64,000 bases of DNA, from positions 62,001-126,000 of the forward strand of contig CANNEK010000002.1 in assembly GCA_947503625.1 (NCBI GenBank), given 5' to 3'. This DNA is from an uncultured Kordiimonas sp. Its GTDB lineage: Bacteria; Pseudomonadota; Alphaproteobacteria; Sphingomonadales; Kordiimonadaceae. The notes beneath the pieces were generated by a model. The model was not told where the DNA came from and ran no database searches. It was given only the letters and a program-made list of their open reading frames with translations. Below are positions 1 through 27,057 of this stretch, piece after piece (within the stretch, counting starts at the first letter, position 1; the number at the start of each line of letters is the position of its first letter). A program made the position numbers and the translations under genes.

Positions 1-35
1 TTTCCCCTTATCGAGTTGGTGTGTCCTACGCGGGA

Positions 36-749
36 CTATTTGATTGAAATGCTTGAAAGTCCGCCAGAGTGCTTGCGCACATCTTTTGGATCGCCATACA
101 CGGAGATCGAAGCAACACCTGCAACGCGCGCGTCAATACTTTCGCTCGCATACACGGAAGCAGAGCCAGCACCTTTAACGTCAACTTCCACATCAGCGCA
201 CTTCAGGTCGTCAGCATCAATGTCGCCAGCACCGCGAACGTCCAGCAATAGCTTGCCGCAAGTGCCTTCAATTTCGACGTCTGCCGCACCGCGGACATCG
301 ATCTCCAGTTCTTCGCTATCAATATTGGAAAGTTCACCATCTACAGCGCCCATGACTTCAAGCTCGACAAGTGTCGGCATTGAGATGGTCACTTCAACTT
401 CCGCGTTGTTCCAGAAGTTTTTGCGGCCCTCGGTATCCATATCGATAACAAGCGTATCGCCGTCCAGAACTGTCGTTACATCCTCAATACGGTTCTCGCG
501 GGTACGCACTGTAACGGCAAAGTCTTCACCTGCTGTCAGCTCGAGTTCGATGGCACCTCTAACCTGAACGCGGGTAAAATCCGCCACATCCCGGCTTTCA
601 GTTACACGATCACGGCTATCCCGGTTTCGCTCCATCGCCGCAGACCCTGCGACCGAATGCAAAACAGTTGCTGCAACGCCCGCAGCCATCAAGCCAACAA
701 GCGCTTTCCGCCCCAATGAAGGGCGGGTCGAATATGATAGATTTCTCAC
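36..749 (-). CDS. Exported DUF2807 (GIN-domain) beta-helix protein
   Basis: Product of about 237 residues. After a hydrophobic N-terminal segment (alanine/valine-rich, ending near GSAAMERNRD) comes the repetitive beta-rich pattern of the DUF2807 'auto-transporter adhesin head GIN' family, for example DVRGAADVEIEG followed by DVRGAGDIDADD. Such proteins are usually secreted or periplasmic; function is unknown. An upstream ATG at 839 is possible in frame, but I prefer GTG at 747-749 because a good ribosome site (GAGAGGA) precedes it and the signal peptide then begins in the usual place. The gene is complete and nothing beyond it is visible at the window edge. Family call is fairly sure; function is not. 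Confidence 0.72.
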   Translation of the reverse strand: MRNLSYSTRPSLGRKALVGLMAAGVAATVLHSVAGSAAMERNRDSRDRVTESRDVADFTRVQVRGAIELELTAGEDFAVTVRTRENRIEDVTTVLDGDTLVIDMDTEGRKNFWNNAEVEVTISMPTLVELEVMGAVDGELSNIDSEELEIDVRGAADVEIEGTCGKLLLDVRGAGDIDADDLKCADVEVDVKGAGSASVYASESIDARVAGVASISVYGDPKDVRKHSGGLSSISIK

Positions 750-1026
750 GAGTAGATCCTCTCTGTTACTGTCGTGTTTTTTTATAGTTTTTTTTAACGG
801 GTAATCGTTTTGTTTATGAACCCGATATAAATATCCCACTTCAAGGCTTCAAGGTCAAGTCAGCCGCCAAATTCGCTCAACTAAACCTTTGTTAGGCACC
901 GTTTATCGCGGTTGAAGCCCAAATTAGCAAAAAAAGCGATGTGATACGGCTATGGATTTGCGACTCGGCTACAAAGATTGCCTTTCTGTATGATATCGCT
1001 CACAATGTCTGAATCAGAGGGGAAAT

Positions 1027-1413
1027 ATGGACGAAATCGCATCTCATCAACTGGCGAACCTGATCAAGCCATCCGCCAAAGGCAATTCCAATACCGGTCC
1101 TCGAAACCGCAATCGCACGGTGTATTTCACGAGAAACGAACTTTCTCAAATTCTGAACGTTTATGGCCGCCTGGTAACAGCAGGAGAATGGCGTGACTAT
1201 GCTATCGATCACGTTCAGGATCACGCGGTGTTTTCGATTTTCAGGCGTGCCAGCGAAATACCGCACTATCGGATCATCAAGGAACCTGCGTTATCCAACC
1301 AGCAGGGCGCCTGGCGTATTCTTGGCGCGGCCGGGCAAGTGCTGAAGCGCGGCAGAAAACTTGATCAGTTGCTGCGCTACTTTGATCGCCATCATCTTAA
1401 AGCCATCACCTGA
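1027..1413 (+). CDS. DUF2794 family protein
   Basis: Protein of 128 residues matching the small cytoplasmic DUF2794 family of alphaproteobacteria. The recognisable core is the conserved stretch VYFTRNEL...GRLVTAGEWRDYAIDH, then FRRASE, PHYRI and a C-terminal RGRKLDQLLRYF. Function is unknown. The start is an ATG preceded by a GAGGGGA ribosome site. It stands alone between the divergent DUF2807 gene and the convergent histidine kinase, with only 24 bp to the kinase stop codon. Confidence 0.8.
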   Translation: MDEIASHQLANLIKPSAKGNSNTGPRNRNRTVYFTRNELSQILNVYGRLVTAGEWRDYAIDHVQDHAVFSIFRRASEIPHYRIIKEPALSNQQGAWRILGAAGQVLKRGRKLDQLLRYFDRHHLKAIT

Positions 1414-1437
1414 ACAGGAAATGCCGCAACCGAAACG

Positions 1438-3357
1438 CTATCGGTTCTGCAGGTAGATTTTCTTGATAAGCTGATCAAGACTTTGCCAGTCAATGGGCTT
1501 GGCGACACAATCATCAATCCCGATCTCTTTGTATTCTTTGACATGCATTTCTGCAGCGTCCGCCGTAAGCGCAACAATAGGGGTTGTGGACCAATCGCAA
1601 GACGATGCCCTTATTTTTCTGGATGCCTCCACGCCGTCCATGACCGGCATGTGTATATCCATCAACACGACATCGAACGGCGCCTTGGAGAGCGCATCAA
1701 GGGCCTGTTGGCCATCAGAAACCAAAGTGACGGAATAACCAAACCGCTCAACGAGAAATTTTTGCAGCATCATCTGGTTAACCGGATTGTCCTCGGCAGC
1801 AAGCACTCGGATATCTGCCGCTGAAGCTTCTGAGATACCCTCGGCGGCCGCGCCTGCGTCCTTGTTTTCGCTGGTTACGCGGTCAAAAGCTGCTTCAAAA
1901 TAAAAGGTGCTGCCAAAACCTTTCTTGCTTGCACACCAAACCTTGCCATCCATCATGCCAGCAAGGCTTTTGCATATAGACAGCCCGAGACCGGTGCCTT
2001 CGGACGACCGGCTGCGGGTGCCCTCCGCCTGATAAAATGGTTTGAACAGATTGCCACGCTCGCCCGGTGTAAGGCCCATACCATCATCGCGGACTGAGAA
2101 GCTGACGAATACCTTGCCAACACCCGCTTCACTATAGCCTTCATCGATATCCACGGTCAGGGCAACGTCGCCTTTTTCCGTAAACTTCGTGGCATTCGAC
2201 AGAAAGTTGTTAAGAATTTGAGTGACCCTGACGGGGTCCAGTAATAGCTTGAGGTCTCCGTCACCCTTCAGGGTTTTCGAAAATTTCAGGCCTTTTGCCT
2301 CGGTCGCTTTCTTGTGTGTTTGAGCAAGTTCCTCCACCAAGTCCGCAATTCTTACCGGTTTTGGATTAAGATCAAAACGTCCTGCTTCCATTTTCGAAAC
2401 ATCTAAAACATCAGAGAGAACAGTCAGAAGCTGATCGCTACTGTTCAGCGCAACCTGAGACAACCGTCTGCGCTCGTCTGCGTCAGCCTCTTCTGCCAGC
2501 AGCTCCAGAACACTCGTAATCCCGTTCAAAGGTGTGCGGACCTCATGACTGATCAGTGCAAGGAAGTTGGACTTTGCAGTATTGGCTTTATCCGCTTCCT
2601 CCTTTGCTGCCACAAGTTGGGCTTCGCGCGCTTTCTGGATAGCGATATCCTGATGGGTACCAACGATCCGCAGAGGCGAACCGTCAGCGCGGCGGCTGAC
2701 AATTTTACCCCGGCTTAACACCCACATCAGACTACCGTCTTTATGGATCATCTGGAATTCATCTTCCAGATATCCGTCACCCGCAGTCAAATAGTCCTGT
2801 ACTGCCTCTTCATATTCAACAAGGTCCTCAGGTTTGCACAAAACCCTCCATGTGTCATATGAATGCGGCAATTCAAACTGCTCATATCCCAGCATTTCCA
2901 TATAACGGGCACTGAAATACACTTCGCCGGTAACAACATTCCAGTCCCACAAGCCATAGTCCGCGCCGTCCACGGCGAACCTTAGCTGGTCACGTTCACG
3001 CAGCAACCTGCGGGTTTCCTCTTCCGACCTGCCCAGAGACCTCAAAATGATACAACATCCGATATCCGGAGCCGGCGCAGGCGCGGCATTCCAGCGCATA
3101 ACTGTCTTCTTGTTTTTCTCCAGCCCCAGATCAACCAGCTGATCCCGAAGTGGTGTGCCCGCCAGCAGCATTTGAAAGTCGGCCTGATTCAGAAAACTCT
3201 GGCATTCTTCAAAGTGAGATTTTCCGATCAAACTGCTAATGCTGTCTGCGCCCGTCAACGTGACCCAGCGGTCATTGACCTCAATGTAACGCCCCTGGTT
3301 GTCGAGGACGGCAGCAGCAAATTCAAGAGCGTCGAAAACCAGATCACCAAGAGACAT
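1438..3357 (-). CDS. Soluble hybrid sensor histidine kinase (PAS-PAS-HisKA-HATPase-REC)
   Basis: Protein of 639 residues. Order of domains: a PAS domain at about 1-110, a second PAS/PAC domain at about 120-245 (DYGLWDWN ... DGSPLRIVGTHQDI), a HisKA dimerisation helix with the phospho-accepting His in NFLALISHEVRTPLNG (about 265-280), an HATPase domain with N box (NNFLSNATKF), DDGMGL and GTGLGLSI, and a C-terminal receiver domain (AAEDNPVN; phospho-Asp in VLMDIHMPVMDG; LTAD). No membrane segment is visible, so it probably senses a cytoplasmic or membrane-permeant cue through the PAS domains. The built-in receiver suggests a phosphorelay, but no Hpt protein or separate regulator lies nearby, so the output is unknown. 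Confidence 0.9.
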   Translation of the reverse strand: MSLGDLVFDALEFAAAVLDNQGRYIEVNDRWVTLTGADSISSLIGKSHFEECQSFLNQADFQMLLAGTPLRDQLVDLGLEKNKKTVMRWNAAPAPAPDIGCCIILRSLGRSEEETRRLLRERDQLRFAVDGADYGLWDWNVVTGEVYFSARYMEMLGYEQFELPHSYDTWRVLCKPEDLVEYEEAVQDYLTAGDGYLEDEFQMIHKDGSLMWVLSRGKIVSRRADGSPLRIVGTHQDIAIQKAREAQLVAAKEEADKANTAKSNFLALISHEVRTPLNGITSVLELLAEEADADERRRLSQVALNSSDQLLTVLSDVLDVSKMEAGRFDLNPKPVRIADLVEELAQTHKKATEAKGLKFSKTLKGDGDLKLLLDPVRVTQILNNFLSNATKFTEKGDVALTVDIDEGYSEAGVGKVFVSFSVRDDGMGLTPGERGNLFKPFYQAEGTRSRSSEGTGLGLSICKSLAGMMDGKVWCASKKGFGSTFYFEAAFDRVTSENKDAGAAAEGISEASAADIRVLAAEDNPVNQMMLQKFLVERFGYSVTLVSDGQQALDALSKAPFDVVLMDIHMPVMDGVEASRKIRASSCDWSTTPIVALTADAAEMHVKEYKEIGIDDCVAKPIDWQSLDQLIKKIYLQNR

Positions 3358-3672
3358 CCGCCCATCGTCTTTGGCGCTGCCGGGAACTGCCTCCCTCGCG
3401 GCCTCAGCCCGATTGATATGGTCCTTGCTCGAAATCGGTCCCTACCCTTATTACTTGCCTGCTTTTCATATAACCGAAAAGTTGCCAATCAGTTTACCGC
3501 CTATTGACATGATGTCGGCTTTAAAACCTCTGGTCCAGATACTTTATCCTTTGCAAATACCAGCAACCCCGCATTCGCCTATCAGGTCATTTGTATTTTC
3601 CATTGAATTTTGCAATCCTCACAAAATGACAAGACGGATGCAAACATACCCCGGAAAGGCTGATCATACGAC
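3358..3672. other. Intergenic region between divergent genes
   Basis: This 315-bp stretch separates the histidine kinase (minus strand) from the CorA-like gene (plus strand) and must hold both promoters. Open frames here lack family resemblance and look like chance. I see no RNA gene, repeat or clear operator. Confidence 0.5.
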
Positions 3673-4791
3673 ATGCGAAAAAATATAGTCCTGTGCAGCT
3701 TTGATCAGAAGTCTGCCGACCTTAGCTTCAGCTTCGATGAAGAGTATGATGAGTATGTTCACCCTCTGGAGGTTACACTTGGTTTCAGACAGGTGTTCTG
3801 GAAGTGCTTCTCCAAAATCAGATCGTCAGCATTCGAGGACGAAACAATTAGCTGGCTTGGTGAAGAATTTCTGCTCAGGCAGGCGTTCTTTTTTGAAAGT
3901 ATAGACACATCACTTGGTGAAACAGACGGCAACCTGTATGTCGCGGCGTTTGTGCTGGACTGCCAAAATGAAGGTAGAAAACAGATAAGTGAGCTGCGCA
4001 GTATCGCCGGTCAAAATGAACAGGACGCCATTTTTTCCCTTTTCGATGCAATGCCGGAAAAAATTAAAAACACCTTCACACAACATTTGAGCCATTCATC
4101 AAATTTCCCCGGCTTGTCAAACTATGAGATCGATACGACAACACACAGTGACGACGTCACATGTGCGCTCCTATACGGTTTCTTCTACTGGGGAAAATTG
4201 CTTCTTTGGCGTATCCGAAGGGATCAGGCTGATATCAATATTTCTGTTCGCCAGCAGAACTTCAAAAACGCCATATTCCTGACGGCTATTCAACGTTCGC
4301 GCATTATCAACATCAAGCGGTTCCAGCTCACTTCGAATATCAGCAACAACCAACAGATTAAAAAAACTACGGCAAGTATGAAAGCGCATCTGAATCTGGT
4401 AACTGAATATGAAAATGATGAAAACCTGAATACGCTCTTCGAGGAATATCTGGCGTCCCTGGAAAAACTATTCTCGGAGGAAAACCGCCGGAAAATTGAG
4501 CGCGCCGTTCAGGTGTTCTCTTTTATCGCCGTACCCTTCACTATTTTCGGCGCCCTGATTGGCCTGAAAACCGATGCCCCTATCATCAGGTCTGCGCTTG
4601 AAGTGTTCGAAAACCAGAATGTCTGGATGTTTTTGTTTATGTGCGCAGCCGTGCCTGCAATTGTATATACCGCGACATTCGCAATCTCCCGGGAACAAAA
4701 CATTTCCACCCGTCTGGATCGTTTTCGGGAAAAAAACGGGGTCAGTAAAATGTCAGTGAAGAAACGTCGCCTCCCGATACGGCGGTTCTGA
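3673..4791 (+). CDS. Membrane protein with CorA-like C-terminal topology
   Basis: Protein of 372 residues not assigned to a family by sequence alone. Residues 1-270 are soluble and rich in charged and helical sequence. The C-terminal hundred residues run: a long charged helix, a membrane segment (FSFIAVPFTIFGALIGLK), a short loop, a second membrane segment (WMFLFMCAAVPAIVYTATFAI) and a basic tail. This is the layout of CorA/ZntB divalent-cation channels, including the Pro-x-Thr and Gly spacing before the loop, but the hallmark Gly-Met-Asn is replaced by Gly-Leu-Lys. It may be a divergent CorA-like transporter or an unrelated two-helix anchor. Its last 50 bp overlap the convergent Mur ligase gene. 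Confidence 0.55.
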   Translation: MRKNIVLCSFDQKSADLSFSFDEEYDEYVHPLEVTLGFRQVFWKCFSKIRSSAFEDETISWLGEEFLLRQAFFFESIDTSLGETDGNLYVAAFVLDCQNEGRKQISELRSIAGQNEQDAIFSLFDAMPEKIKNTFTQHLSHSSNFPGLSNYEIDTTTHSDDVTCALLYGFFYWGKLLLWRIRRDQADINISVRQQNFKNAIFLTAIQRSRIINIKRFQLTSNISNNQQIKKTTASMKAHLNLVTEYENDENLNTLFEEYLASLEKLFSEENRRKIERAVQVFSFIAVPFTIFGALIGLKTDAPIIRSALEVFENQNVWMFLFMCAAVPAIVYTATFAISREQNISTRLDRFREKNGVSKMSVKKRRLPIRRF

Positions 4792-6055
4792 ACTCCAGTG
4801 CACTGAACAATCCGCCAGTTGCCAGAAAACTCTTTCCTGATCCTTTTTCATTTTCCCTGAGCCAGCGCCACAGCTGAACCGAACTGTCAAAGCACTGCAC
4901 GCAGGCTGCCGGGTTTTCGGTACGGATTACATTGGCGATCTCTTCCGGGGCCTGTCCTTTGTGGTGTGCCGCAAAAACCAGAAAGTCGGATGCGAATTCA
5001 GTAAGTATCCGACTGATTTCCCGCCAGTTTTTGTCGGCTGAAACGCCCAGTATCATTGTTGGTTGTTCACTATGGAGATGGCGATAGCTTCTCGCCACTT
5101 CACGCACTGCATCAGGCGTATGGGCTCCGTCACACACGATGTAAGGGTCTCTTGAGATCACTTCAAACCTCACGGGCAAAGTAAATTCGGCACATGTTGA
5201 AACGAATGTTTCATCAAGCCTGGCGCGCGCATCAGACTGAAGCAGGAAAGTCTTCAAAAGCTGGTAACCCAGAAGACTGTTCTTCACGAAGTAGGAGGCT
5301 GGCACGGCAAAATCCAACTTACTGGCAAGACCATCAATGCCTTCAACCACGACACCAGCCTTGCCGCTTTCCTTGAACCCGTGGCGATCTATGATCAGTT
5401 CATGGTCCAGATAGCAGCTCTGCCGTGCCCCCAAGCCAGCATAAAAACTGAAAAAACCAGCCAGGTCATCGCCAAGCCAACCCGAGACTATCGTGCCGTC
5501 GGGGCCAAGCACATCAATCTTGTCAGCGACAATTTCAGCTCTGGTGTTTCCTAACAACTGCGTATGTTCAAGGTCGATGGACGTTAAAACGGCGTGCCTG
5601 CCAGCAAACAGGCGGGTCGGGTCATATCGCCCGCCAATGCCTGCTTCGATGATCAGCACATCCGGCCGCTCTCTTTCAAAAACAAGAACCGAGAGCAGCG
5701 TCATTATCTCAAAACTGCCAAAGGAGCTGAAATCCGTTGGTAATGAGTGAAGAGACTGCCAGGCGTCTCCAAGTGCATTTGCGGAAACCTGCGTTCCGTT
5801 CAGGCGAAATCGCTCGCTAAACTCGAAGTAATGCGGTGATAGAAACGTGCCGGTGCTGACGCCTAGCGTCTCCAGCATTTTTTCCAGAAACAAAGCCGTG
5901 CTGCCTTTGCCATTAGTGCCAACGACGTGAATAATTTCACAGGTTGTCGAAAGGCTTTGCCAGACCTCCGGCATTGCCTCATAGGTACGGCGAAGGCCAA
6001 TACCGTCGCCGTATTTTGGCAACTTCAATATTTCCCCGAAAACGTCAACGGGCAT
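4742..6055 (-). CDS. FolC-like Mur ligase
   Basis: Protein of 437 residues with the folylpolyglutamate synthase/Mur ligase fold. The P-loop GTNGKGS is at 46-52, followed by SPHYFEFSERFRLNG (73-87), matching the FolC 'SPHL..F.ERIR.NG' signature. GIGGRYDPTRLF, TSIDLEHTQLLG and the Lys-containing AEIVADKIDVLG follow, and the C-terminal domain has CDGAHTPDA and GVSADKNW. ATG at 6055 is preferred to TTG at 6064. The gene overlaps the upstream ATP-grasp gene by 11 bp, so the two are translationally coupled. A housekeeping FolC normally sits after accD, so this may be a paralogue acting with the ATP-grasp ligase on another acidic or peptide substrate. That is inference. Confidence 0.72.
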   Translation of the reverse strand: MPVDVFGEILKLPKYGDGIGLRRTYEAMPEVWQSLSTTCEIIHVVGTNGKGSTALFLEKMLETLGVSTGTFLSPHYFEFSERFRLNGTQVSANALGDAWQSLHSLPTDFSSFGSFEIMTLLSVLVFERERPDVLIIEAGIGGRYDPTRLFAGRHAVLTSIDLEHTQLLGNTRAEIVADKIDVLGPDGTIVSGWLGDDLAGFFSFYAGLGARQSCYLDHELIIDRHGFKESGKAGVVVEGIDGLASKLDFAVPASYFVKNSLLGYQLLKTFLLQSDARARLDETFVSTCAEFTLPVRFEVISRDPYIVCDGAHTPDAVREVARSYRHLHSEQPTMILGVSADKNWREISRILTEFASDFLVFAAHHKGQAPEEIANVIRTENPAACVQCFDSSVQLWRWLRENEKGSGKSFLATGGLFSALEFRTAVSGGDVSSLTFY

Positions 6056-7082
6056 TGGCTGCAAGCCCTTCGCTGATAACGGTTTCCCAGATACCGGTCA
6101 GCAACTCTACCTTACCGAGCTTCTCCAGAGTTGTAAGAGCGGGATTACAATTCAGCTCAATGACCACAGGTTCACTTTCCTGACGGTTTCGGCACATAAA
6201 ATCGATCGCGCATACCCGTAAACCGGAAACCTCATAAACCTTTCTGCACAACTCCTTTTCATACGTTGTGAAAGAAGTTTTAAAATCAAAAACCCCGCCA
6301 CCGTAGGATGAGTTCGCTTTCTCCGAGCAGGTGATTTTTTGACCTTCTTTCAAAACAGAAGCCAGGGTGAGCTGTTGCTTTTCCATCGCTGAAACCAAAA
6401 CCCTGTCATCATCGTTCAATGGCGACAAACCTTGTCGTTCAAGCCTTTCGTTTTCGACCGAGAGCAACTGATCCAGTCTGGATCGACCATTGCCTACCAG
6501 CTCTGGCTGCGTTTTCCGGTAGGAAAAAACGGGTTCGCCATCGATGTAGAACAGTCTGCCCTCTTCTCCTTCGAGGACTTCCTGTATGACGGCGCTATGG
6601 AAAGACTGTGCAGTTTTCTGAAGGTGTGAACGAAGTGTTGTTTCGTTGTTTACTGACCGGGCGAGCACACCACGAGAGCCCTGATTGGGTTTGACAAAAA
6701 CCGGGTACCCGATTGCCTCCGCAAAAGATACCCCGTCCTCAATCTCGCGCCCGGCTGGCCTCATGTCTGCATACTGTTCTTTGACAAATACAAGTTGTGA
6801 TCGCGGCGTTGCGATACCCGCTTTGGCCAAAAGGCCATATGTGTGGGATTTGTCTGTTACGAGCGTGGATGCTGCTGCGTTGTTGATAGCGTAGCCTGAA
6901 ACAGTCCCTGCCCCAACAAAGATGCTGGATTTCTCGTTCGAAACTCGCGCTACATAGCGCGAAAACGTGTCGACAACCTCGAAATCACAACCAAGCCTGG
7001 TCGCTGCAAGCTCCGCATATCTTATGTTCAGGGGTACAGTATCCATTGCCGCGTTTGTGTCCGTTTTAACAACCAGTCTCAA
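6045..7082 (-). CDS. CphA/GshF-like ATP-grasp ligase
   Basis: Protein of about 345 residues from a TTG start; the first ATG in frame is at 7046 and the true start is uncertain. The fold is ATP-grasp: phosphate-loop region VFVKPNQGSRG at 128-138, VIQEVLEGEEGRLFYIDG, then VGNGRSRLDQLL and ANSSYGGGVFDF. These last two resemble the 'VGDGRST..EL' and 'ANLSTGG' motifs of cyanophycin synthetase and GshF ligases. The metal ligands lie in IELNCNP near 310. Such enzymes join an amino group to an acyl phosphate. CphA itself fuses this module to a Mur ligase domain; here a separate Mur ligase gene follows in an 11-bp overlap. Substrate unknown. Confidence 0.7.
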   Translation of the reverse strand: MRLVVKTDTNAAMDTVPLNIRYAELAATRLGCDFEVVDTFSRYVARVSNEKSSIFVGAGTVSGYAINNAAASTLVTDKSHTYGLLAKAGIATPRSQLVFVKEQYADMRPAGREIEDGVSFAEAIGYPVFVKPNQGSRGVLARSVNNETTLRSHLQKTAQSFHSAVIQEVLEGEEGRLFYIDGEPVFSYRKTQPELVGNGRSRLDQLLSVENERLERQGLSPLNDDDRVLVSAMEKQQLTLASVLKEGQKITCSEKANSSYGGGVFDFKTSFTTYEKELCRKVYEVSGLRVCAIDFMCRNRQESEPVVIELNCNPALTTLEKLGKVELLTGIWETVISEGLAANAR

Positions 7083-7249
7083 GGAGCATAAGCAAGTAGC
7101 AAAATGCTATCATATGAATCCCGCGCAATCAGCACAACCCAATGCATTGTCACACGGTTTCCGGCTTCATGCACATGCAGAACAGGACAAGCTGTTGTTT
7201 ACCTCTTCAGCCACGCACGGAGAAAACTCAGGGAAAAATACGAAGAAAA

Positions 7250-7324
7250 TGGTGCCGCTGGGGAGAATTGAACTCCCGGCCTCACCCTTACCAAGGGTGC
7301 GCTCTACCACTGAGCTACAGCGGC
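7250..7324 (-). tRNA. tRNA-Thr(GGT)
   Basis: Read on the minus strand, the 75-nt gene folds into a full cloverleaf: acceptor arms GCCGCTG and CAGCGGC, a D arm with GCTC/GAGC, an anticodon stem CACCC/GGGTG with loop TTGGTAA (anticodon GGT), and a T arm with TTCAATT. The 3' CCA is encoded. Confidence 0.96.
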
Positions 7325-7823: not shown

Positions 7824-8378
7824 ATGTCCATCATGTCCGATAAATGGATCAGAAAAATGTCCCAGGAACAGGACATGATCGAACCTTTCATTGATGGTCA
7901 GGTGAGAGATGGCAACATCTCATACGGGCTGTCATCCTATGGGTATGATGCCCGGGTCGCGCCGGAATTCAAGATATTCACCAATGTTGATTCGGCTATC
8001 GTGGACCCAAAGAATTTTTCGCCAAAAAGCTTTGTAGACCGTGACACAGACGAATGCGTTATACCGCCAAACAGCTTTGCGCTGGCCCGAACCGTTGAAT
8101 ACTTCCGTGTACCCAAAGACGTTCTGGTGATTTGCCTTGGTAAATCAACCTACGCGCGCTGCGGCATCATTGTGAATGTAACTCCGCTCGAACCGGGCTG
8201 GGAAGGCCATGTTACGCTTGAGTTTTCCAACACAACACCGCTTCCTGCGCGTATTTACGCCAACGAAGGCGCGTGCCAGTTCCTGTTCCTGCAAGGCAAT
8301 GAACCTTGTGAAACAGCATACAGTGACAGGGCCGGTAAATATCAGGGGCAACGTGGCGTCACTTTGCCGAAGCTGTAA
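7824..8378 (+). CDS. dcd: dCTP deaminase
   Basis: Protein of 184 residues, the usual length for Dcd. It deaminates dCTP to dUTP and so feeds dTTP synthesis. Conserved blocks are [12 protein letters not shown] near 33-44, the [12 protein letters not shown] substrate loop, and [12 protein letters not shown] with the catalytic Glu at about 133, followed by the C-terminal [15 protein letters not shown] 7824 has the ribosome site AAGGGGAA. It lies 84 bp upstream of murA on the same strand, as is usual in alphaproteobacteria. Confidence 0.97.
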
Positions 8379-19690: not shown

Positions 19691-19765
19691 GCCCGGGTAG
19701 CTCAGGGGTAGAGCAGCGGATTGAAAATCCGCGTGTCGGTGGTTCAAATCCGCCCCCGGGCACCA
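19691..19765 (+). tRNA. tRNA-Phe(GAA), insertion target
   Basis: The 75-nt gene folds fully: acceptor arms GCCCGGG/CCCGGGC, D arm GCTC/GAGC, anticodon stem GCGGA/TCCGC with loop TTGAAAA (anticodon GAA), and a T arm with TTCAAAT. CCA is encoded. It remains intact after insertion of the element that starts directly behind it. Confidence 0.97.
19719..19765 (+). repeat. attL: 47-bp direct repeat in the tRNA-Phe 3' half
   Basis: The 3' part of tRNA-Phe from the anticodon stem to CCA is repeated without a mismatch at 29149-29195. This is the standard signature of site-specific insertion by a tyrosine integrase into a tRNA gene. Confidence 0.93.
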
Positions 19766-20279
19766 CTTTTCTTCCTTATATTTCAATTAGTTACTCCACT
19801 GTTGCTTGACATGCTTCAATGCGCTTATACCACGCAGGCACCACATAGGTACCAAGCCAGAAGTTTCTGATTGTTTAGACACGCCGAAATTCAAGCGATG
19901 ATCACATATGACGGCCAATTTTGATGGTCACATCGCCATAAATGATCACCAATGCGCAACATATGTTTCATCACTTCATTACACCGACAAAAGTCAATGG
20001 CCACCCATGGCCCGGAAAATGCGACAGATCGGTATTGCCGTTAGCTGTATTGTGCAACTGCCACGTCAGCCTTGGGGTATACCCTCCCCCTGAGATGTCG
20101 CGTTGCTATAGGTGTCCGTTCTCAAAATTTTCGCGCAACTGGATGGTTAGAGCCATACATCAATTGAACAATTTTATTAACTTCTAACCGGATGTAAATA
20201 CTACTGTAGCACCTCACAAAAAGAGCATTAGTAGAATATTCCGATCGACAAACGGCCTAATGGCACGTATAATGATTGC
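19766..20279. other. Left end of the element, no clear gene
   Basis: These 514 bp lie between attL and the methyltransferase gene. They contain the 25-bp repeat at 19835 and the methyltransferase promoter. Open frames here have no coding character that I can support. Confidence 0.5.
19835..19859 (+). repeat. 25-bp direct repeat, left copy
   Basis: The sequence beginning CAGGCACCACATAGGTACC occurs identically at 29001-29025, near the other end of the element and in the same orientation. It contains the palindrome GGTACC. Its place 70 bp inside attL suggests an integrase arm-type or accessory site. Confidence 0.75.
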
Positions 20280-21440
20280 ATGATCGAAAATGACTTTAAT
20301 CTCATAGATTTGTATTGTGGCTGCGGAGGCTTTGGCCTTGGTGCACACTTGGCAGGATTTAATGTCAAATTAGCTGTTGATTTGGACGCTACACTTTCAT
20401 CTGCGTATAAAAAGAACTTTCCCAACACTGATGTTAAAAACTATGACTTGGCTTCGACTTCAACCACTCAGCTACTCAACGACATCGATAATACACACAT
20501 ATCTGGAGTAATCGGCGGCCCACCTTGCCAAGGTTTTAGCCATATTGGAAAAAAGGACTCTAGTGATCCCCGCAATGAATTGCTTCACCACTATTTCATT
20601 CACGTTCAAAATATTCAGCCCGACTTTTTTATCATGGAAAATGTGCCCGGCTTACTTTCCAAAGACACGCGTGGCCAATTAGACGATGCAATAGCTATTG
20701 TTAGTTCAGACTATAGAATCATAGGTCCAATAATACTCGACGCATGTGATTTTGGCGTGCCAACCAGCCGAAAAAGAGCGGTCGTGATTGGATACCGCCC
20801 CGAGAAAGTATCTCATTTTGATGAAGCAGATATCAAAGGACTTATCGGGCATCAAAGGACCAACATAAAAGAAGCAATATATGGCCTACCAGAACCTAAA
20901 AACTTTGCTACCGATGACTTTGGCTGGGCTAAAATAGATAAACGCACTCAACAGAGTATCTATGCAAAACAATCTATGGCGACACCTCATGGCTCGTTTG
21001 GCGACCCAGATGCAATCAAAAAACTGAAGAAGGGTTTTGTGTCTGGTTTCATGAATACTGTTCATTCTGATAAGGTGGCAAATCGCTATAACTCAATTAC
21101 TCCTGGCATGGTTGACAAAACCAGCAAATCTATACGATTGAAATGGACAGGACTGAGCCCGACTTTGCGAGCCGGCACTGGCAGTGACAAGGGCAGCTTT
21201 CAGGCTGTGAGACCAATACACCCACAGCACGGCAGGGTAATAACCGTAAGAGAGGCCGCCCGCATTCAGGGGTTTCCTGACTGGTATGTTTTTCATCCCA
21301 CAAAATGGCATAGCTTCCGGATGATTGGAAATAGCGTGTCGCCAATTTTTTCGAAAGCACTTTTATCTTTTATTCGGGGACAGCTAATCTCTAAGAGACA
21401 GTCTCAAGCGCCTCTAAAATATCGTCAGGCAGCTGAATAG
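20280..21440 (+). CDS. DNA (cytosine-5) methyltransferase
   Basis: Protein of 386 residues with the motifs of C5 DNA methyltransferases in order: SAM-binding LYCGCGGFGLGAHLAG (11-26), the catalytic GPPCQGFSHIG with Cys83, IMENVPGLL with the ENV triad at 120-122, FGVPTSRKRAVVIG (motif VIII), REAARIQGFPDWY (motif IX), and IGNSVSP (motif X). The specificity region between VIII and IX is short. It probably protects host DNA at an unknown target site. Its 3' end overlaps the convergent gene at 21391 by 50 bp, so the two transcripts are antisense there. Start ATG 20280. Confidence 0.95.
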   Translation: MIENDFNLIDLYCGCGGFGLGAHLAGFNVKLAVDLDATLSSAYKKNFPNTDVKNYDLASTSTTQLLNDIDNTHISGVIGGPPCQGFSHIGKKDSSDPRNELLHHYFIHVQNIQPDFFIMENVPGLLSKDTRGQLDDAIAIVSSDYRIIGPIILDACDFGVPTSRKRAVVIGYRPEKVSHFDEADIKGLIGHQRTNIKEAIYGLPEPKNFATDDFGWAKIDKRTQQSIYAKQSMATPHGSFGDPDAIKKLKKGFVSGFMNTVHSDKVANRYNSITPGMVDKTSKSIRLKWTGLSPTLRAGTGSDKGSFQAVRPIHPQHGRVITVREAARIQGFPDWYVFHPTKWHSFRMIGNSVSPIFSKALLSFIRGQLISKRQSQAPLKYRQAAE

Positions 21441-22443
21441 TTTTAGAAATCAAAATGTACGGCAAATAATCTTTATACAAACGGAAATCTTTTACACTAC
21501 TGATTGAACCACCAACAGTTTCCCCGAGCTGAAAGCCTAAGTTTTCATGAACAATATGGTTTTCTTCATGCTCATCAATCAATGTTTCAAGTCGTCGTCT
21601 TTCTCTTATCGATAAGTCAGGTATTTTGATCTCTGGTATTGCCTGATCATCCGATAGCAAACAAAGGCCGGTGTTTGCGAAGAACTCTTCTTTTGCACCA
21701 TTTTGAACTGCCATACAGGTTATTGTAAGCATATCATGTGACCCGTCATTATAAACATAAACACTGACTGGTGAAATCGAGTAATTGTGAGCTGATTCCG
21801 ATGCTTCTTTAATCTGATAGTTTACTGCGCCAAGCAATATTTTGGCCATCGAAGCCTTTGATATTGTTTGGCCGTCAACTAATTTGTCAGGAATCATATC
21901 TCCCAACTGCTGCCTTAAATCGGCCATCATCAACATTTGCTGTTCATGGGCTTTAACAGCCCTGTTTCCGTATCCGCTCAACGTGGAAACGGAACAATTT
22001 AGTGTTATTTTTAGAACATCACCCGGTGTCAATTCACCAGCTAAAATTCCAAATTCCCGAATCTGGGTGCGACGACCTTTTGATGAAGCATAGTCCAACC
22101 AAACTACAGCGTTCTCAGCGTCATCACATTGTTCAATAATTTGAGGAAATTCACGAACAAACTTCTCAGAAGTCATGTGTTCGCACTTTATTGGTGTATC
22201 ATTGAGGTTATTAAATCTTTGTCGGGTTACAACTGCTTCATCCATTTCAAATGACAGGAGAGAATTAAAAGCAAAATGTTGACCCATGAGCTTATGATCA
22301 GACAGGAAAGGTCCACCCATAGAAATGTAAATGTATTGGTCCTGCGGCCAAACTATAAATGCTTTTGACAACAATTCGCAAAAGAGTAGGCGCTCTACAT
22401 ACTTCTTTGGACGCAGGTGATATGGAACATTACTCCCGGCCAC
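21391..22443 (-). CDS. Unknown protein, possible Rossmann methyltransferase-like
   Basis: Protein of 350 residues starting at GTG, two bases after the stop of the GHKL gene, so translation is coupled. I do not recognise a named family. The N-terminal part (HLRPKKYVERLLFCELL, then YIYISMGGPFLSDHKLM, LLSFEMDEAVVTRQRFNN) has the shape of a Rossmann start, a Gly-rich loop and an acidic strand end, as in some O-methyltransferase-like proteins. VVWLDYASSK near 115 could be the next strand. No nuclease signature is visible. It is probably the working partner or effector of the GHKL ATPase. Confidence 0.6.
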   Translation of the reverse strand: MAGSNVPYHLRPKKYVERLLFCELLSKAFIVWPQDQYIYISMGGPFLSDHKLMGQHFAFNSLLSFEMDEAVVTRQRFNNLNDTPIKCEHMTSEKFVREFPQIIEQCDDAENAVVWLDYASSKGRRTQIREFGILAGELTPGDVLKITLNCSVSTLSGYGNRAVKAHEQQMLMMADLRQQLGDMIPDKLVDGQTISKASMAKILLGAVNYQIKEASESAHNYSISPVSVYVYNDGSHDMLTITCMAVQNGAKEEFFANTGLCLLSDDQAIPEIKIPDLSIRERRRLETLIDEHEENHIVHENLGFQLGETVGGSISSVKDFRLYKDYLPYILISKTIQLPDDILEALETVS

Positions 22444-22445
22444 GA

Positions 22446-23912
22446 TTAGAAATCCCGCTCCTCTTCATCTTCGCGCAAACCTTCCGCACAGTAGTCAAAC
22501 GCAGCCTCCCCCACTTCAGAGGCTGAAATTCCATCATGATCAAGATCTTCAAACCATGCGGCCTTTAGAAAATCCACCTCCGATTTAGATTTGGTGAAGG
22601 ATATTCTGACAATTTTACTTTCTTTGGATGGCAACCTAAGAGATGGTATATACTTCTCTGCGTGTTCTGATCGATCTTTGAGCTTCCTAACTTTCGTCCA
22701 GCTAGTTTGATTGTTAGAACTTCGCTTTACAATGTCTTGTAATTTTCGCGGCGTCAGCCCTTTAAAGTCGTCTGCTGTCTCCTCAGTGCGCCCCTTCCAT
22801 TTGTTTGTGTAATCAATAAATATTCGAATTCCTTCACGCATAATGTCCAAGATAACTGCATAAATTTCGGATGAGGTATCAAGTCCACGTTTAGTACTGT
22901 TTAATGGCAAGTTCTGAGCATCCGAGCTTTTAAAATTAACAACACCCGCTATTGAAATAAACTGTGTGTGATAATTAGGGACACCTGCTGTACCCCAGCC
23001 AGTGATATGGCTTTTGTCGGCATACAAAACTAATCGATCATTGCAAATAATTGACCAGCCTGCATTTTCCGAAGTTTTCTTTTCAATTTGCTCACCGTCA
23101 ATTTCTTCAGCAGAAGCTAGAGGTCGGTAAAAGCCTATTGCCAGCTCCACATCTACATTAAACATCTTCGCGCGAAACAAATACGGCTCAACGCTCTCAT
23201 GTCCATCCGCACAGGCATCGTCCGGCGCCATCAATAAAACCTCTTTAGGCTTAACGGCTTCACCATTCACAATAATTGAAAAACCCTTTCTCAAAATCAC
23301 AGAAAAAAGTTTTGAAATTTCGCTCTTCAAATCCGCAACAAAATTCGAATTCTCGACATTAAACTTACGCGCAATATTAGGTAAAAGGCTGGTTATAGAT
23401 ATACGTGTTCCATTTTCTGAGAGTAACTTGTCGGTCTCTTTTAAAGGTATTTCCCAATCATCTTCATCGCTTAACCATTCGGGTGTTATTGTTACCGAAT
23501 AAGTGTCGTCTACATCCTGAGAGTATACTTCCGCGCGCTCCCCCATTTTAAAAATGGCGCGCTTCATTCCAATTCCATACATCCCAACTGTCTCAATATC
23601 CTCATCTTGACCATTTTTTACTCGCCCCATTCTAAACGCATAATTGAGAGCAGTGTTTTTTGGAATACCCCCGCAATTGTCTTCGATAATGAACCTCGAT
23701 TCATCAATAGTTAGATGTGCGTGAAAGCCCTCATAGGGTGCTTCAATAGAGCTTGAATCAATTTTCTTTTTTCTTAGTTGGCGAAGAATTCCGTCGACAC
23801 AATTGTCCAACAAATCCAGAATGGCGTCATCAAGCTCGATATCTCGCACCAGAGATTTTACAAACAAACTCTTCGGTGGAGCAAAGCTAACTTTTTCAGA
23901 TTTTTCGGTCAC
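22446..23912 (-). CDS. GHKL (MutL/MORC/HSP90-like) ATPase of a restriction-type operon
   Basis: Protein of 488 residues. The N-terminal third carries the GHKL ATP site: LDLLDNCVDG (N box, Asn37; the usual catalytic Glu position is Asp33), IIEDNCGGIP at 76-84 in place of DxGxG, and the lid GMYGIGMKRAIFKMG from about 110. GHKL proteins of MutL/MORC type have been described in restriction-modification gene neighbourhoods, where they are thought to gate or load nucleases. The rest is a transducer-like beta region and a charged C-terminus without a recognisable nuclease. It lies 115 bp after the XRE regulator and is followed by the 350-residue gene. Confidence 0.82.
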   Translation of the reverse strand: MTEKSEKVSFAPPKSLFVKSLVRDIELDDAILDLLDNCVDGILRQLRKKKIDSSSIEAPYEGFHAHLTIDESRFIIEDNCGGIPKNTALNYAFRMGRVKNGQDEDIETVGMYGIGMKRAIFKMGERAEVYSQDVDDTYSVTITPEWLSDEDDWEIPLKETDKLLSENGTRISITSLLPNIARKFNVENSNFVADLKSEISKLFSVILRKGFSIIVNGEAVKPKEVLLMAPDDACADGHESVEPYLFRAKMFNVDVELAIGFYRPLASAEEIDGEQIEKKTSENAGWSIICNDRLVLYADKSHITGWGTAGVPNYHTQFISIAGVVNFKSSDAQNLPLNSTKRGLDTSSEIYAVILDIMREGIRIFIDYTNKWKGRTEETADDFKGLTPRKLQDIVKRSSNNQTSWTKVRKLKDRSEHAEKYIPSLRLPSKESKIVRISFTKSKSEVDFLKAAWFEDLDHDGISASEVGEAAFDYCAEGLREDEEERDF

Positions 23913-24027
23913 AATCTACCTTCGATCAATCGACAGATCAGCAAATATACTTAGTGGTAATCATACACGCTAAAGATTACCTAACACCACGCGGTTGATT
24001 TATTGCAAGCGAAAATGTTGTGGTTGA

Positions 24028-24231
24028 TTAATTAAGCAATCTCGAAGGGTGGCAAGCAAGTGCTTTAGCAATCAGTTCCAACACAATAATTGTAGGATTC
24101 CTAATCCCTCGCTCAACGCCTGAAATATAAGTGCGATGCAAACCGCATTCAAAAGCGAGCTGCTCTTGTGACCAGCCTTTTTCCTTGCGCAATCGCGCAA
24201 CGTTATTTCCGACACGTTTCCTAATATCCAT
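24028..24231 (-). CDS. XRE-type controller (C protein-like)
   Basis: A helix-turn-helix protein of 67 residues (ATG 24231; GTG 24249 would add six). ARLRKEKGWSQEQLAFECGLHRTYISGVERG is the XRE fold, and GLHRTYISGVERGxRN closely resembles controller proteins of type II restriction-modification systems. These act as dimers on C-boxes and time expression of the nuclease after entry into a new host. A C-box lies just upstream, and the gene heads the GHKL operon. No strong ribosome site is visible, which is common for leaderless C transcripts. Confidence 0.85.
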   Translation of the reverse strand: MDIRKRVGNNVARLRKEKGWSQEQLAFECGLHRTYISGVERGIRNPTIIVLELIAKALACHPSRLLN

Positions 24232-24250
24232 GCGTTCATGGAACGCCACT

Positions 24251-24280
24251 GTAGATTATTGGTCTACAGACTATAAGTCT
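24251..24280 (-). promoter_or_regulatory. C-box-like operator pair
   Basis: On the minus strand, GACTTATAGTC (24269-24279) has the GACT/AGTC arms of controller-protein operators. It is followed by a second imperfect palindrome, GTAGA...TCTAC (24251-24267). Together they sit 20 bp upstream of the XRE start and also in the region serving the divergent membrane gene. Confidence 0.65.
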
Positions 24281-24331
24281 CATTTTGTTTGTGATACAGC
24301 AAGTTATTCATTGCTGTTTAAGGAGGATAAG

Positions 24332-24667
24332 ATGGCAATAAAGGACAAGTTTAGGAACACAGGGCTATACCGCCTATGGGTGGTTCTATTCTGGCTCTGG
24401 GTTGGAGGTTTTGTATTTCTAGGTGGTTTTGGGGAAACCAAGAAAGCTTATAGAGATTACGAGGAACAAAAATACTGCGAACAAATAAATCAAGACCGAC
24501 TTTGCGTTTCACTCGCGCCAGCTTCTGAAAGAGCTAAAGTTCCACACAATCCGTTAGTGTTACTATTTTGGGTAGTTGGAGCACTTATTGGTCCGCCTTA
24601 TGCGCTTTATTATTTCTACAGAATAGTTCGCTGGGTAGGGCAAGGCTTTAGCACGATAGGCAGTTAG
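24332..24667 (+). CDS. Small two-helix membrane protein
   Basis: Protein of 111 residues with membrane segments near 14-35 (LWVVLFWLWVGGFVFLGGF) and 75-95 (LVLLFWVVGALIGPPYALYYF), separated by a soluble loop with two cysteines. The ribosome site AAGGAGG is close to ideal and is 8 bp before ATG, so it should be well expressed. It is divergent from the XRE regulator with the C-box between them. Function is unknown; a membrane effector or anti-host function of the same defence module is possible. Confidence 0.6.
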   Translation: MAIKDKFRNTGLYRLWVVLFWLWVGGFVFLGGFGETKKAYRDYEEQKYCEQINQDRLCVSLAPASERAKVPHNPLVLLFWVVGALIGPPYALYYFYRIVRWVGQGFSTIGS

Positions 24668-24706
24668 GTATGGCTGTTTTACGGGGTAAAAAGTATGGCC
24701 TATAAC

Positions 24707-25123
24707 CTAGGGCTTCTTTTTCTTTGGCGGGATCAGCTCTAATAGGTCTTGCTTTGTAAGTGTTCTGGTGGCTTTTTCATATTCTTCGACCATCATGGAA
24801 TGCATGAGAATGCTAGACAATGGGGGTTTTGCAAAGCCACGCGAACATATATGTGATGGTAGTTCCCGAAAACGAAGTGGCCGCACCATGTAACTCGGCT
24901 GATGCGTTCGCCCTACTTTATCCTTGCGAATAATTTTCAAAACATTTTCTTCTATGACGAAGCCAAGAAGTTCATATTTCCCGTCCCCAATATCTCGTGC
25001 CTTTTCACGAACACGGTAGCAGCGCCGCCGTAGGACATTTGCAGAATCAGTATCTGAGCATTCTACGACAACGCCGTACATGCTTTGGATAGCATTATCC
25101 ATGATTTGAGCACAGTCACTCAT
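24707..25123 (-). CDS. Hypothetical element protein
   Basis: Protein of 138 residues, unrecognised. It has a basic, mixed alpha/beta character, several cysteines (SDCAQI, VECSDT, RRRCYRV) and a lysine-rich end (IPPKKKKP). It starts one base after the stop of the upstream gene at 25125, so the pair is one operon, transcribed toward the XRE gene. Confidence 0.5.
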   Translation of the reverse strand: MSDCAQIMDNAIQSMYGVVVECSDTDSANVLRRRCYRVREKARDIGDGKYELLGFVIEENVLKIIRKDKVGRTHQPSYMVRPLRFRELPSHICSRGFAKPPLSSILMHSMMVEEYEKATRTLTKQDLLELIPPKKKKP

Positions 25124-25124
25124 A

Positions 25125-25601
25125 TTAAGATTTCAACACATCCACAGGATTAATGCCTTGCATGTGGTAACGGTGATTGCCTGTTCGCTCTGCCTCTCGA
25201 ACTTGGTGAGGGGTTTCTTGTTGGTGCAGAATAAACCACGTTCCATCAATCAGGGCACCGCCCAACTTTCCTTGCCCGATCAAGTCGGGGATAGAATACA
25301 AACCAACACCGTTGTGCCGCTCTTCGGCTTCATCAGCAGGCTGAAGGCGCAAACATAATTGTTCTCTGAGCAAAGGGCTTTTTTGACTGATATAGCTTAT
25401 CTCTTCCATCGAACAGGGAGAGGTTACCATTGCGCCTGCTTCCGGTTTCCGGCCAAGTTCTATTGGTTTATTTCTCTGCAACGTGACAACGCCTTTATGG
25501 AATATCCAATCAATGATGAAGTCGGTTATAGTTTTGACAAAATCATTGTCCCATGCACGGGCCAGCTTCTCGTTGGGTGATCCAAATAATTTTTCGTCCA
25601 T
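25125..25601 (-). CDS. Hypothetical element protein
   Basis: Protein of 158 residues (start MDEKLFGSPNEKL), unrecognised and without signal peptide or membrane segment. ATG 25601 has the ribosome site AAAGGAC; longer starts at 25625 would overlap this site. It lies just after the TGATAC-repeat region and immediately before the 24707 gene. It may be a replication or regulation accessory, but nothing in it shows that. Confidence 0.5.
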   Translation of the reverse strand: MDEKLFGSPNEKLARAWDNDFVKTITDFIIDWIFHKGVVTLQRNKPIELGRKPEAGAMVTSPCSMEEISYISQKSPLLREQLCLRLQPADEAEERHNGVGLYSIPDLIGQGKLGGALIDGTWFILHQQETPHQVREAERTGNHRYHMQGINPVDVLKS

Positions 25602-25638
25602 TTTTCGTCCTTTCATACGTTTCATTGGACTGGTTTCA

Positions 25639-25733
25639 GTATCACCCCCTAAGAAAAGGGGGTGATATGATACCTATCCGCATTCATGAAATTGGTGTCA
25701 TGATACTTGTTTGACACCGATTGATACTGATAC
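25639..25733. repeat. Iteron-like TGATAC cluster with hairpin
   Basis: Five TGATAC/GTATCA hexamers lie at 25639, 25668, 25701, 25722 and 25728. A perfect 10-bp hairpin TATCACCCCC/GGGGGTGATA spans 25640-25667. GGTGTCA (25694-25700) and TGACACC (25712-25718) form an inverted pair around one hexamer. The cluster lies directly behind the RepA-like gene, so it may be a replication origin or operator. Confidence 0.55.
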
Positions 25734-25743
25734 TCGTTACACA

Positions 25744-26739
25744 TCACTTTTCGGCTGGTATTCGGTAAATTACCTCGCGACCGACCACCTCTCGCAACAG
25801 CAATTGCCGTTCGTTTATGTCCTTCATCACCCGATTGAATGTTGGCTTTGAATCGAGCTTTTGCTCTGAAAAAAGCTTGAAAATATCCGTGTTTTTTAAG
25901 CCGTTGGGCATTGCGGCTTTCACAAAGCCCCAAATTGCCTTGATATGCTTTTCTAACGCAGCTCTCTCGCCACCACTCTTTGAGCTTCTCGCTTTTATTT
26001 TTTGAATGTCGGTTTCTAAAACAGGGAAAAGAGTGGTTTTTTCATTTGGCAATGGGAAAGTCTGTAAGACCATTGGAATATCTTTGAACGGCTCTGCATC
26101 TTTCATCTTGGTGCAGGACAAGCACACATCTCGCTCTTTGCCGCCCAGTTCCATAATGACATCTGCTGCACCTTCGAGTGCACTTGAACCTCTCATCCGT
26201 CCTGTATTTTTTGTGGTGTGATGCAATAAAATAACCGTCGCACCAGTTTCTCTGACGAGCCGAGAAACACCGGCAACTAGCTGTCCCATATCCTTTGCAT
26301 TGTTCTCGTCTCCTCCAACAAAAGCACGCGCCAATGTATCCAATACAATCGCTTTTGGGGGTGGGTTGGCCGACTTCAGTTTCTCCATAAAAGTACTGAT
26401 GTCTTCTGTTGAAGTTAGGTTTGGCAACTCGTCGCAAAAATAAATCACAGACGGGTCCAATATATCCTCTAGCAGAGCTGGTATTCTGAGTTTCAACCCG
26501 CCGCCGCCTTCTCCATAGGCATAAAGAACAGGGGTTTTGATTGTTTGTTTCTCTAGCCAAGGACTTCCATAGCGCAACGCGTAAAGCATGCTCAGAACAA
26601 TGAAGGTCTTTCCCATGCCAGGAGGTGCCACTAAAACAACAAAAGATTGTTCGGGAATGATTGCCTCTATTAACCAGCTGGGGTCTGGTTGCGAGAGAAT
26701 TTCTTCCTCGCTGTAAAACCTGAAAGTCTTTTGAGCCAT
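25744..26739 (-). CDS. RepA-like AAA/KaiC-fold ATPase
   Basis: Protein of 331 residues resembling the RepA-type hexameric helicases of plasmids and integrative elements. Walker A APPGMGKT is at 38-45, Walker B AIVLDTLARAF at 130-140, and a sensor region LLHHTTKNTGRMRGSSAL follows near 185. The C-terminus (about 260-331) looks like a winged helix (NGLKNTDIFKLFSEQKLDSKPTFNRVMKDI). It probably unwinds DNA to start replication of the excised element. The gene follows the AlpA-like regulator by nine bases. Confidence 0.82.
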   Translation of the reverse strand: MAQKTFRFYSEEEILSQPDPSWLIEAIIPEQSFVVLVAPPGMGKTFIVLSMLYALRYGSPWLEKQTIKTPVLYAYGEGGGGLKLRIPALLEDILDPSVIYFCDELPNLTSTEDISTFMEKLKSANPPPKAIVLDTLARAFVGGDENNAKDMGQLVAGVSRLVRETGATVILLHHTTKNTGRMRGSSALEGAADVIMELGGKERDVCLSCTKMKDAEPFKDIPMVLQTFPLPNEKTTLFPVLETDIQKIKARSSKSGGERAALEKHIKAIWGFVKAAMPNGLKNTDIFKLFSEQKLDSKPTFNRVMKDINERQLLLREVVGREVIYRIPAEK

Positions 26740-26748
26740 AGCGTTGCA

Positions 26749-26949
26749 TTAGACCTCGCCCACCAGTCCTGCAAACTCGAGGAGGTCTGATTTGCGGTAT
26801 CGCACAAGACGTTTTCCAATACGAACGTATTTGGGGCCTGCGCCTGTAAGACGATAATTTTCCAGTGTGCGGTGCGAAATACCAAGGAATTTTGCGGCTT
26901 GGTTTTGCGTTAATAATTTAGGTAGGGGTTGTTCGTGATCTTGAGTCAT
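26749..26949 (-). CDS. AlpA/excisionase-like helix-turn-helix protein
   Basis: A 66-residue MerR/excisionase-type DNA-binding protein: LLTQNQAAKFLGISHRTLENYR is the winged HTH, and GPKYVRIGKRLVRYRKSDLLEF the wing. Such proteins next to an integrase act as excisionases or as activators of the integrase. It lies upstream of the RepA-like gene on the same strand and downstream of the inverted repeat at 27008-27048, which may be its target. Confidence 0.82.
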   Translation of the reverse strand: MTQDHEQPLPKLLTQNQAAKFLGISHRTLENYRLTGAGPKYVRIGKRLVRYRKSDLLEFAGLVGEV

Positions 26950-27007
26950 AATCTTCCTCCGTTATGGATTAAGGGAAGATTATGGTTGTTCTGCGTATTC
27001 ATTTTGA

Positions 27008-27048
27008 GTGACACCATTTAGGCATGAACTGGCGCTAAAGCGTGTCAC
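27008..27048. promoter_or_regulatory. Inverted repeat upstream of the AlpA-like gene
   Basis: GTGACAC (27008-27014) and GTGTCAC (27042-27048) are perfect inverted arms 27 bp apart. The same TGACACC/GGTGTCA word occurs in the cluster at 25694-25718, on the other side of the RepA-like gene, so one protein may bind both. Confidence 0.45.
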
Positions 27049-27057
27049 GGAATTTCA

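Follow-up and report, generated by a model that had tools for sequence, protein, structure and literature searches.

A conserved pair of ATP-grasp and FolC-like Mur ligase genes in an uncultured Kordiimonas

The closest described systems to the locus treated here are the cyanophycin synthetase CphA1, the folate enzyme FolC, the ATP-grasp module of GshF, and the ATP-grasp ligases that build amino-acid tails on certain cofactors. CphA1 holds an N domain, an ATP-grasp (G) domain, and a Mur ligase (M) domain in one chain; in GshF an ATP-grasp module is fused to GshA; and MptN and CofF are alpha-glutamate ligases that add amino-acid tails to cofactors. In methylofuran, two ATP-grasp ligases, MyfA and MyfB, act in sequence on one cofactor tail (PMC8141765). 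Here we describe two adjacent genes, encoding an ATP-grasp carboxylate-amine ligase and a FolC-like Mur ligase, in a 64,000-nucleotide stretch of an uncultured Kordiimonas sp. genome (assembly GCA_947503625.1, contig CANNEK010000002.1, positions 62,001 to 126,000), the whole of which is referred to as the window. A preliminary description, made from the DNA letters alone, had read these genes as a split CphA. The pair is instead a real, conserved, and uncharacterized two-ligase module that is neither a split CphA nor a housekeeping folC. No description of an ATP-grasp/FolC-like Mur pair appeared among the results listed by searches of the open PMC literature, subscription papers being outside the scope of those searches.

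The two open reading frames (ORFs) lie in different frames of the minus strand, the ATP-grasp gene first, and overlap by 11 base pairs (bp), as the preliminary description had stated. A survey of the class (385 genomes, ATP-grasp threshold E 1e-20) returned matches in eight genomes, the window's own among them, and in four of these (its own, G040, G123, and G227) the Mur gene adjoins the ATP-grasp gene. In G004, G106, and G308 the latter has no Mur gene beside it; the G067 contig stops a short way downstream of the ATP-grasp gene, so a Mur neighbor cannot be judged. In a phylum sample of 398 genomes, searched at a threshold of 1e-30, 33 genomes matched. Besides the window's own, three of one family (f172) stand out, at 220–243 bits in open frames of 339–350 amino acids (aa); the remaining matches score below 130 bits in open frames of at least 455 aa, which fits CphA- or GshF-like chains. 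Within f172 the ATP-grasp is matched in 38 of 295 genomes, representing 5 of 47 genera, and the Mur gene lies directly downstream, with an overlap of 0 to 8 bp, at 30/30 loci, a count that leaves 8 of the 38 matching genomes outside it. The genes overlap by 4 bp in G040 and by 1 bp in G123 and are separated by 3 bp in G227, so that across all 34 loci having both genes (the window's own, G040, G123, G227, and 30 of f172) the order is constant and the spacing varies between a gap of 3 bp and an overlap of 11 bp. The homolog survey that the preliminary description had suggested therefore recovers the same pair repeatedly, and the pairing is not a matter of chance. This conserved order also rules out, for the pair, a RimK or glutathione enzyme with random neighbors, a possibility raised at the same time.

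The Mur partner falls within the FolC lineage, on a branch of its own, and not within that of the CphA M domain. The window Mur ligase scores 215.2 bits against the FolC model TIGR01499, above the cut-off of 162.65, and 25 bits against the CphA model TIGR02068 (cut-off 850), of whose length the ATP-grasp and Mur chains each cover only a part. Its AlphaFold model (predicted local distance difference test score, pLDDT, 87.6; predicted template modeling score, pTM, 0.89) finds its best fold matches in FolC/FPGS structures (1w7k, Z 37.7, root-mean-square deviation [rmsd] 2.6, 396 aligned; 1jbw, Z 37.5, rmsd 2.9, 396 aligned), as against Z 25.4, rmsd 3.3, and 349 aligned for CphA 7wae (VIA-align); these comparisons rank only the listed structures and do not exclude unlisted families. 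In a tree of 30 rows, thinned from those available, 14 pair Mur and 16 FolC sequences separate at a branch with 100/100 support. A TIGR01499 search of 37 chosen genomes gave exactly two matches in 34/34 pair genomes, the pair Mur gene at 215–274 bits and another, ordinary folC at 302–382 bits. The genomes lacking an adjacent Mur gene gave two matches (G004), one (G106), and none (G067), and both G004 copies carry the ordinary DxTN motif. The G067 assembly is listed as 100% complete and carries its ATP-grasp gene at a contig end, yet it has no TIGR01499 match at 1e-20. The Mur clade is seen only beside this ATP-grasp, in differing surroundings (34/34).

Residues of the Mur ligases were compared between 34 pair rows and 32 FolC rows, the latter amounting to 31 distinct genes, as the folC of the window's genome enters twice (L222 and L030). 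In L. casei numbering, the P-loop (GTNGKGS in the window) and Ser73, Glu143, His170, and Lys185, columns that we take to serve metal and carbamate roles, are retained in every pair row. Four differences are fixed (34/34 pair rows, 0/32 FolC rows): N154 to R, D169 to E, N317 to T or S, and S412 to G, with N154, N317, and S412 present in 32/32 FolC rows. As motifs, the pair enzymes have DxTR (DPTR in the window) in place of the FolC DxTN, EH in place of DH, HTP or HSP in place of HNP, and a C-terminal GGLF in place of GSLY, as well as an added LxF C-terminus. The F121 and D151 columns, presumably the pterin-facing Phe and Asp of a published review, are retained in 34/34 pair rows, which suggests an acceptor pocket that has been modified and not lost. 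That review (PMC4790348) describes a pterin that stacks against a Phe together with further residues and is bonded by an Asp. In a published FPGS model (PMC10861534), the glutamate gamma-carboxylate is held in place by a Ser that precedes two Val residues, and this Ser would correspond to the S412 column.

For the window ATP-grasp ligase, the top curated model match is cyanophycin synthetase (TIGR02068, E 3.6e-28, 98 bits), followed by NAGGN synthetase, RimK, and GshF; the RimK family TIGR00768 gives 63 bits (cut-off 143.4) and the MptN model 26.3 bits (cut-off 350), and the sequence stays below the cut-off of every NCBIfam model listed for it. The cyanophycin synthetase model is a weak match in all 34 members scanned. 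The predicted structure (pLDDT 81, pTM 0.78) is similarly close to the GshF G domain (3ln6, Z 17.4, rmsd 6.2, 286 aligned) and to CphA (7wae, Z 17.3, rmsd 6.0, 288 aligned), the latter match spanning residues 160–485, the whole G domain; the N domain of CphA is absent and, unlike in GshF, there is no fusion to GshA. The assignments of the preliminary description, CphA/GshF type for this gene and FolC-like for its partner, are thus borne out.

In TeCphA1 numbering, Lys220, Lys261, Arg309, Asn394, Glu450, and Asn452, which include the ATP and Mg residues, are retained in 34/34 ATP-grasps; PMC9427784 gives roles for the first five. The CphA catalytic His267 is Arg in 34/34, at a P-loop position where GshF has Tyr or Phe (PMC9427784). 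The CphA primer-binding Glu215 is never Glu in these 34 sequences, being Thr or Ser, or Asp in one; Arg323 is Lys in 32/34, and Gly456 is replaced throughout by Ser or Ala. Since the catalytic residues are kept while substrate residues are changed, the ATP-grasp is very likely an active ligase with a substrate other than that of CphA. A split CphA, for its part, is rejected on the lineage of the Mur half (FolC, with a 100/100 branch), the missing N domain, and the replacement of polymer-recognition residues.

The genome of the window (4.07 Mb, 11 contigs) has both of the better-known enzymes elsewhere. A second folC, such as the preliminary description had proposed to look for, lies at C2:996836-998059 (360 bits), adjoining accD and a few genes from trxA, which rules out the Mur gene as the only folC of the genome. 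Contig C1 carries a full cyanophycin cluster (L029 5483-11957): a CphA of 933 aa that includes the N-terminal domain, a cyanophycinase-type peptidase S51, an asparaginase-type hydrolase, and, after CphA, a second Mur protein of 582 aa that has the Mur part only. Within the window, no cyanophycinase or folate gene is adjacent to the pair, as first described. With a separate folC and a complete cyanophycin cluster in the same genome, neither job is vacant for the pair.

We consider it somewhat more probable than otherwise (roughly 57%) that the two genes form a two-step amide-ligation module whose product differs both from cyanophycin and from the ordinary folate of the separate folC, a cofactor-like conjugate being likelier than a storage polymer. 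Both enzymes would be active, ADP-forming amide ligases serving one product. The FolC-like enzyme would activate a carboxylate of a small acceptor as an acyl phosphate and attach a first amino acid; the ATP-grasp enzyme would then activate a carboxylate of the same acceptor or of the product and join a second amino acid, so that a short tail is lengthened or capped. For the acceptor we envisage a small molecule bearing a carboxylate, which may be a folate-like cofactor. The gene pairing, the lineage, the intact catalytic residues, the changed substrate-site residues, and the separate folC and cphA are observed; activity, the shared product, the order of steps, and the nature of the acceptor and amino acids are what we infer. 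The preliminary description had allowed for either an amino-acid polymer or a conjugated cofactor distinct from cyanophycin; a product other than cyanophycin remains probable, and the conjugated small molecule appears to fit better, the polymer less well.

By analogy, the nearest functional precedent would be MyfA and MyfB of methylofuran, which, like MptN and CofF, are ATP-grasp ligases concerned with stepwise amino-acid tails on cofactors. The difference lies in the partner: both Myf enzymes are ATP-grasp proteins, and the available portion of the source names no Mur ligase beside them (PMC8141765), whereas the pair includes a FolC-like Mur.

A more specific form of this proposal is tentative: that the pair is an undescribed alphaproteobacterial module in which a FolC-derived ligase of new specificity and a CphA/GshF-type ATP-grasp build an amino-acid tail, possibly of mixed linkage, on a folate-like or other cofactor, and that the modified coenzyme has been overlooked as the Mur enzyme passes for a second folC.

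Several observations weigh against a two-step module. The ATP-grasp can work alone, since G004, G106, and other genomes have it with no Mur gene next to it. The window Mur is the most divergent copy in the tree, on a long branch of 2.08, and could have drifted in function. The genomic context is also not constant, and the neighbors in the window are uninformative. At ten f172 loci read (L175-L177 and L238-L244, from five genera), the pair has within a few genes of it a glutamate-synthase-domain gene on one side and a zinc-type oxidoreductase gene on the other, the former domain having been checked in two loci and the latter in one, whereas in G040 the surroundings are transporter-like and chemoreceptor genes. 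The f172 neighbors may reflect shared synteny only.

Among other explanations, the one that survives best is specific to folate, and we regard it as possible, at about one chance in four: the Mur enzyme would add glutamate or another amino acid to folate and the ATP-grasp an alpha-linked residue, giving a mixed-linkage tail of the kind MptN and CofF make on other cofactors. The FolC ancestry of the Mur gene, its score over the FolC cut-off in 34/34, and the retention of F121 and D151, which we take to face the pterin, are all consistent with this. Two contexts hint at the same link, the pair lying directly behind accD-folC in G123 and the lone ATP-grasp relative of G004 (L027 7028-8877) overlapping thyA by 4 bp (8065-8068). 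However, these may represent one event each, and no folate neighbor was seen in the f172, G040, or window contexts. The change of DxTN to DxTR in 34/34 likewise argues against folate, as does Gly in 34/34 at S412, the position that would hold the gamma-carboxylate of the incoming glutamate in FPGS, judging from the model in PMC10861534.

Rather unlikely is a small peptide or thiol natural product, similar to glutathione or a dipeptide, made by ligating free amino acids with no cofactor acceptor. The ATP-grasp fold is as near to GshF as to CphA, and stand-alone relatives occur in unrelated bacteria among the matches listed; yet enzymes of the FolC/Mur type act by activating a large acceptor, the Phe on the acceptor side is retained, and no transporter, regulator, or tailoring gene accompanies the pair across contexts. 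Improbable to a greater degree is a cyanophycin-type synthetase in two parts, with a polymer backbone laid down by the ATP-grasp and side chains added by the Mur enzyme. Cyanophycin synthetases are the best sequence matches of the ATP-grasp, and the two activities would parallel those of the G and M domains, but the N domain is missing, Glu215 and His267 are lost in 34/34, the Mur half is of FolC type, a full cyanophycin cluster already exists elsewhere in the genome, and no hydrolase of such a polymer was recognized beside the pair in the contexts read. That the Mur gene is merely a redundant FolC paralog next to an unrelated ATP-grasp gene, as its passing of the family cut-off would lead automatic annotation to say, is very improbable given 34/34 pairings in different surroundings and a Mur clade found only beside this ATP-grasp.

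The coordinates of the locus are given in Table 1. For both genes, the ATG is likely to be preferred as start over the upstream TTG.

Table 1. Features of the two-ligase locus, in window coordinates
Feature	Position	Strand	Remarks
ATP-grasp carboxylate-amine ligase gene	6045..7046	minus	333 aa with likely start ATG 7046; ORF from TTG 7082, 345 aa
FolC-like Mur ligase gene	4742..6055	minus	437 aa with likely start ATG 6055; ORF from TTG 6064, 440 aa
11-bp overlap of the ATP-grasp and Mur reading frames	6045..6055	minus	holds with Mur start ATG 6055
tRNA-Thr(ggt)	7250..7324	minus	upstream of the pair, same strand; border of a site at which members of the genus differ in gene content

On its other side, the pair is flanked by a histidine kinase gene, followed by a membrane-like gene. 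At E 1e-20 the ATP-grasp was found in 0/16 other genomes of the genus, among 99 genomes of the order searched. Inspection of the corresponding spot in nine genus relatives found both the kinase and the tRNA-Thr in the stretch in three (G409, G432, and G426), with other genes there; these data suggest that the spot is variable within the genus and that the pair was acquired by the lineage of the window. The pair shows no island signature by composition (its G+C is 0.507 and that of the window 0.51). A search of 1-7200 and 7400-30000 for exact repeats, of at least 13 bases, of the tRNA-Thr region found none, so that the case for recent acquisition consists of absence from 16/16 other genus genomes and the variable spot. 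Predicted promoters and terminators showed no excess over shuffles. Elsewhere in the window, behind a tRNA-Phe, a stretch of lower G+C (about 0.42–0.46) at 19691-28970 encodes a C5 cytosine methylase, a Methyltransf_35 protein, a GHKL-type ATPase, an AAA_25 protein, and a phage-type integrase; it has the look of an integrated island that may include a restriction-like system.

A contig scan with one short pattern, which gives no frequencies, supplied the stand-alone ATP-grasp relatives mentioned above; no recognizable f172 pair appeared among the matches listed in it. A link to glutathione is possible for the relative in G308 (L028), its upstream gene being GshA-like by the look of the sequence only. 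No ATP-grasp relatives were found in viral contigs; two weak matches occur in small unannotated phage records and two on Rhizobium plasmids (L020 and L021; 27% identity over 76% of the query), beside which no Mur gene is listed. Carriage of the pair as phage or plasmid cargo is therefore rejected. The Rhizobium gene is an orphan of 349 aa, once annotated as cyanophycin synthetase and followed by two small hypothetical genes.

As it stands, 34 genomes carry the Mur clade as an apparent duplicate folC above the FolC cut-off, and automatic annotation would consequently assign these genes the wrong reaction if their specificity has changed. The module can be recognized by its fixed differences, DxTR and GGLF in the Mur ligase together with GSRG or GARG in the neighboring ATP-grasp, and the pair may lead to a new conjugated cofactor or metabolite.

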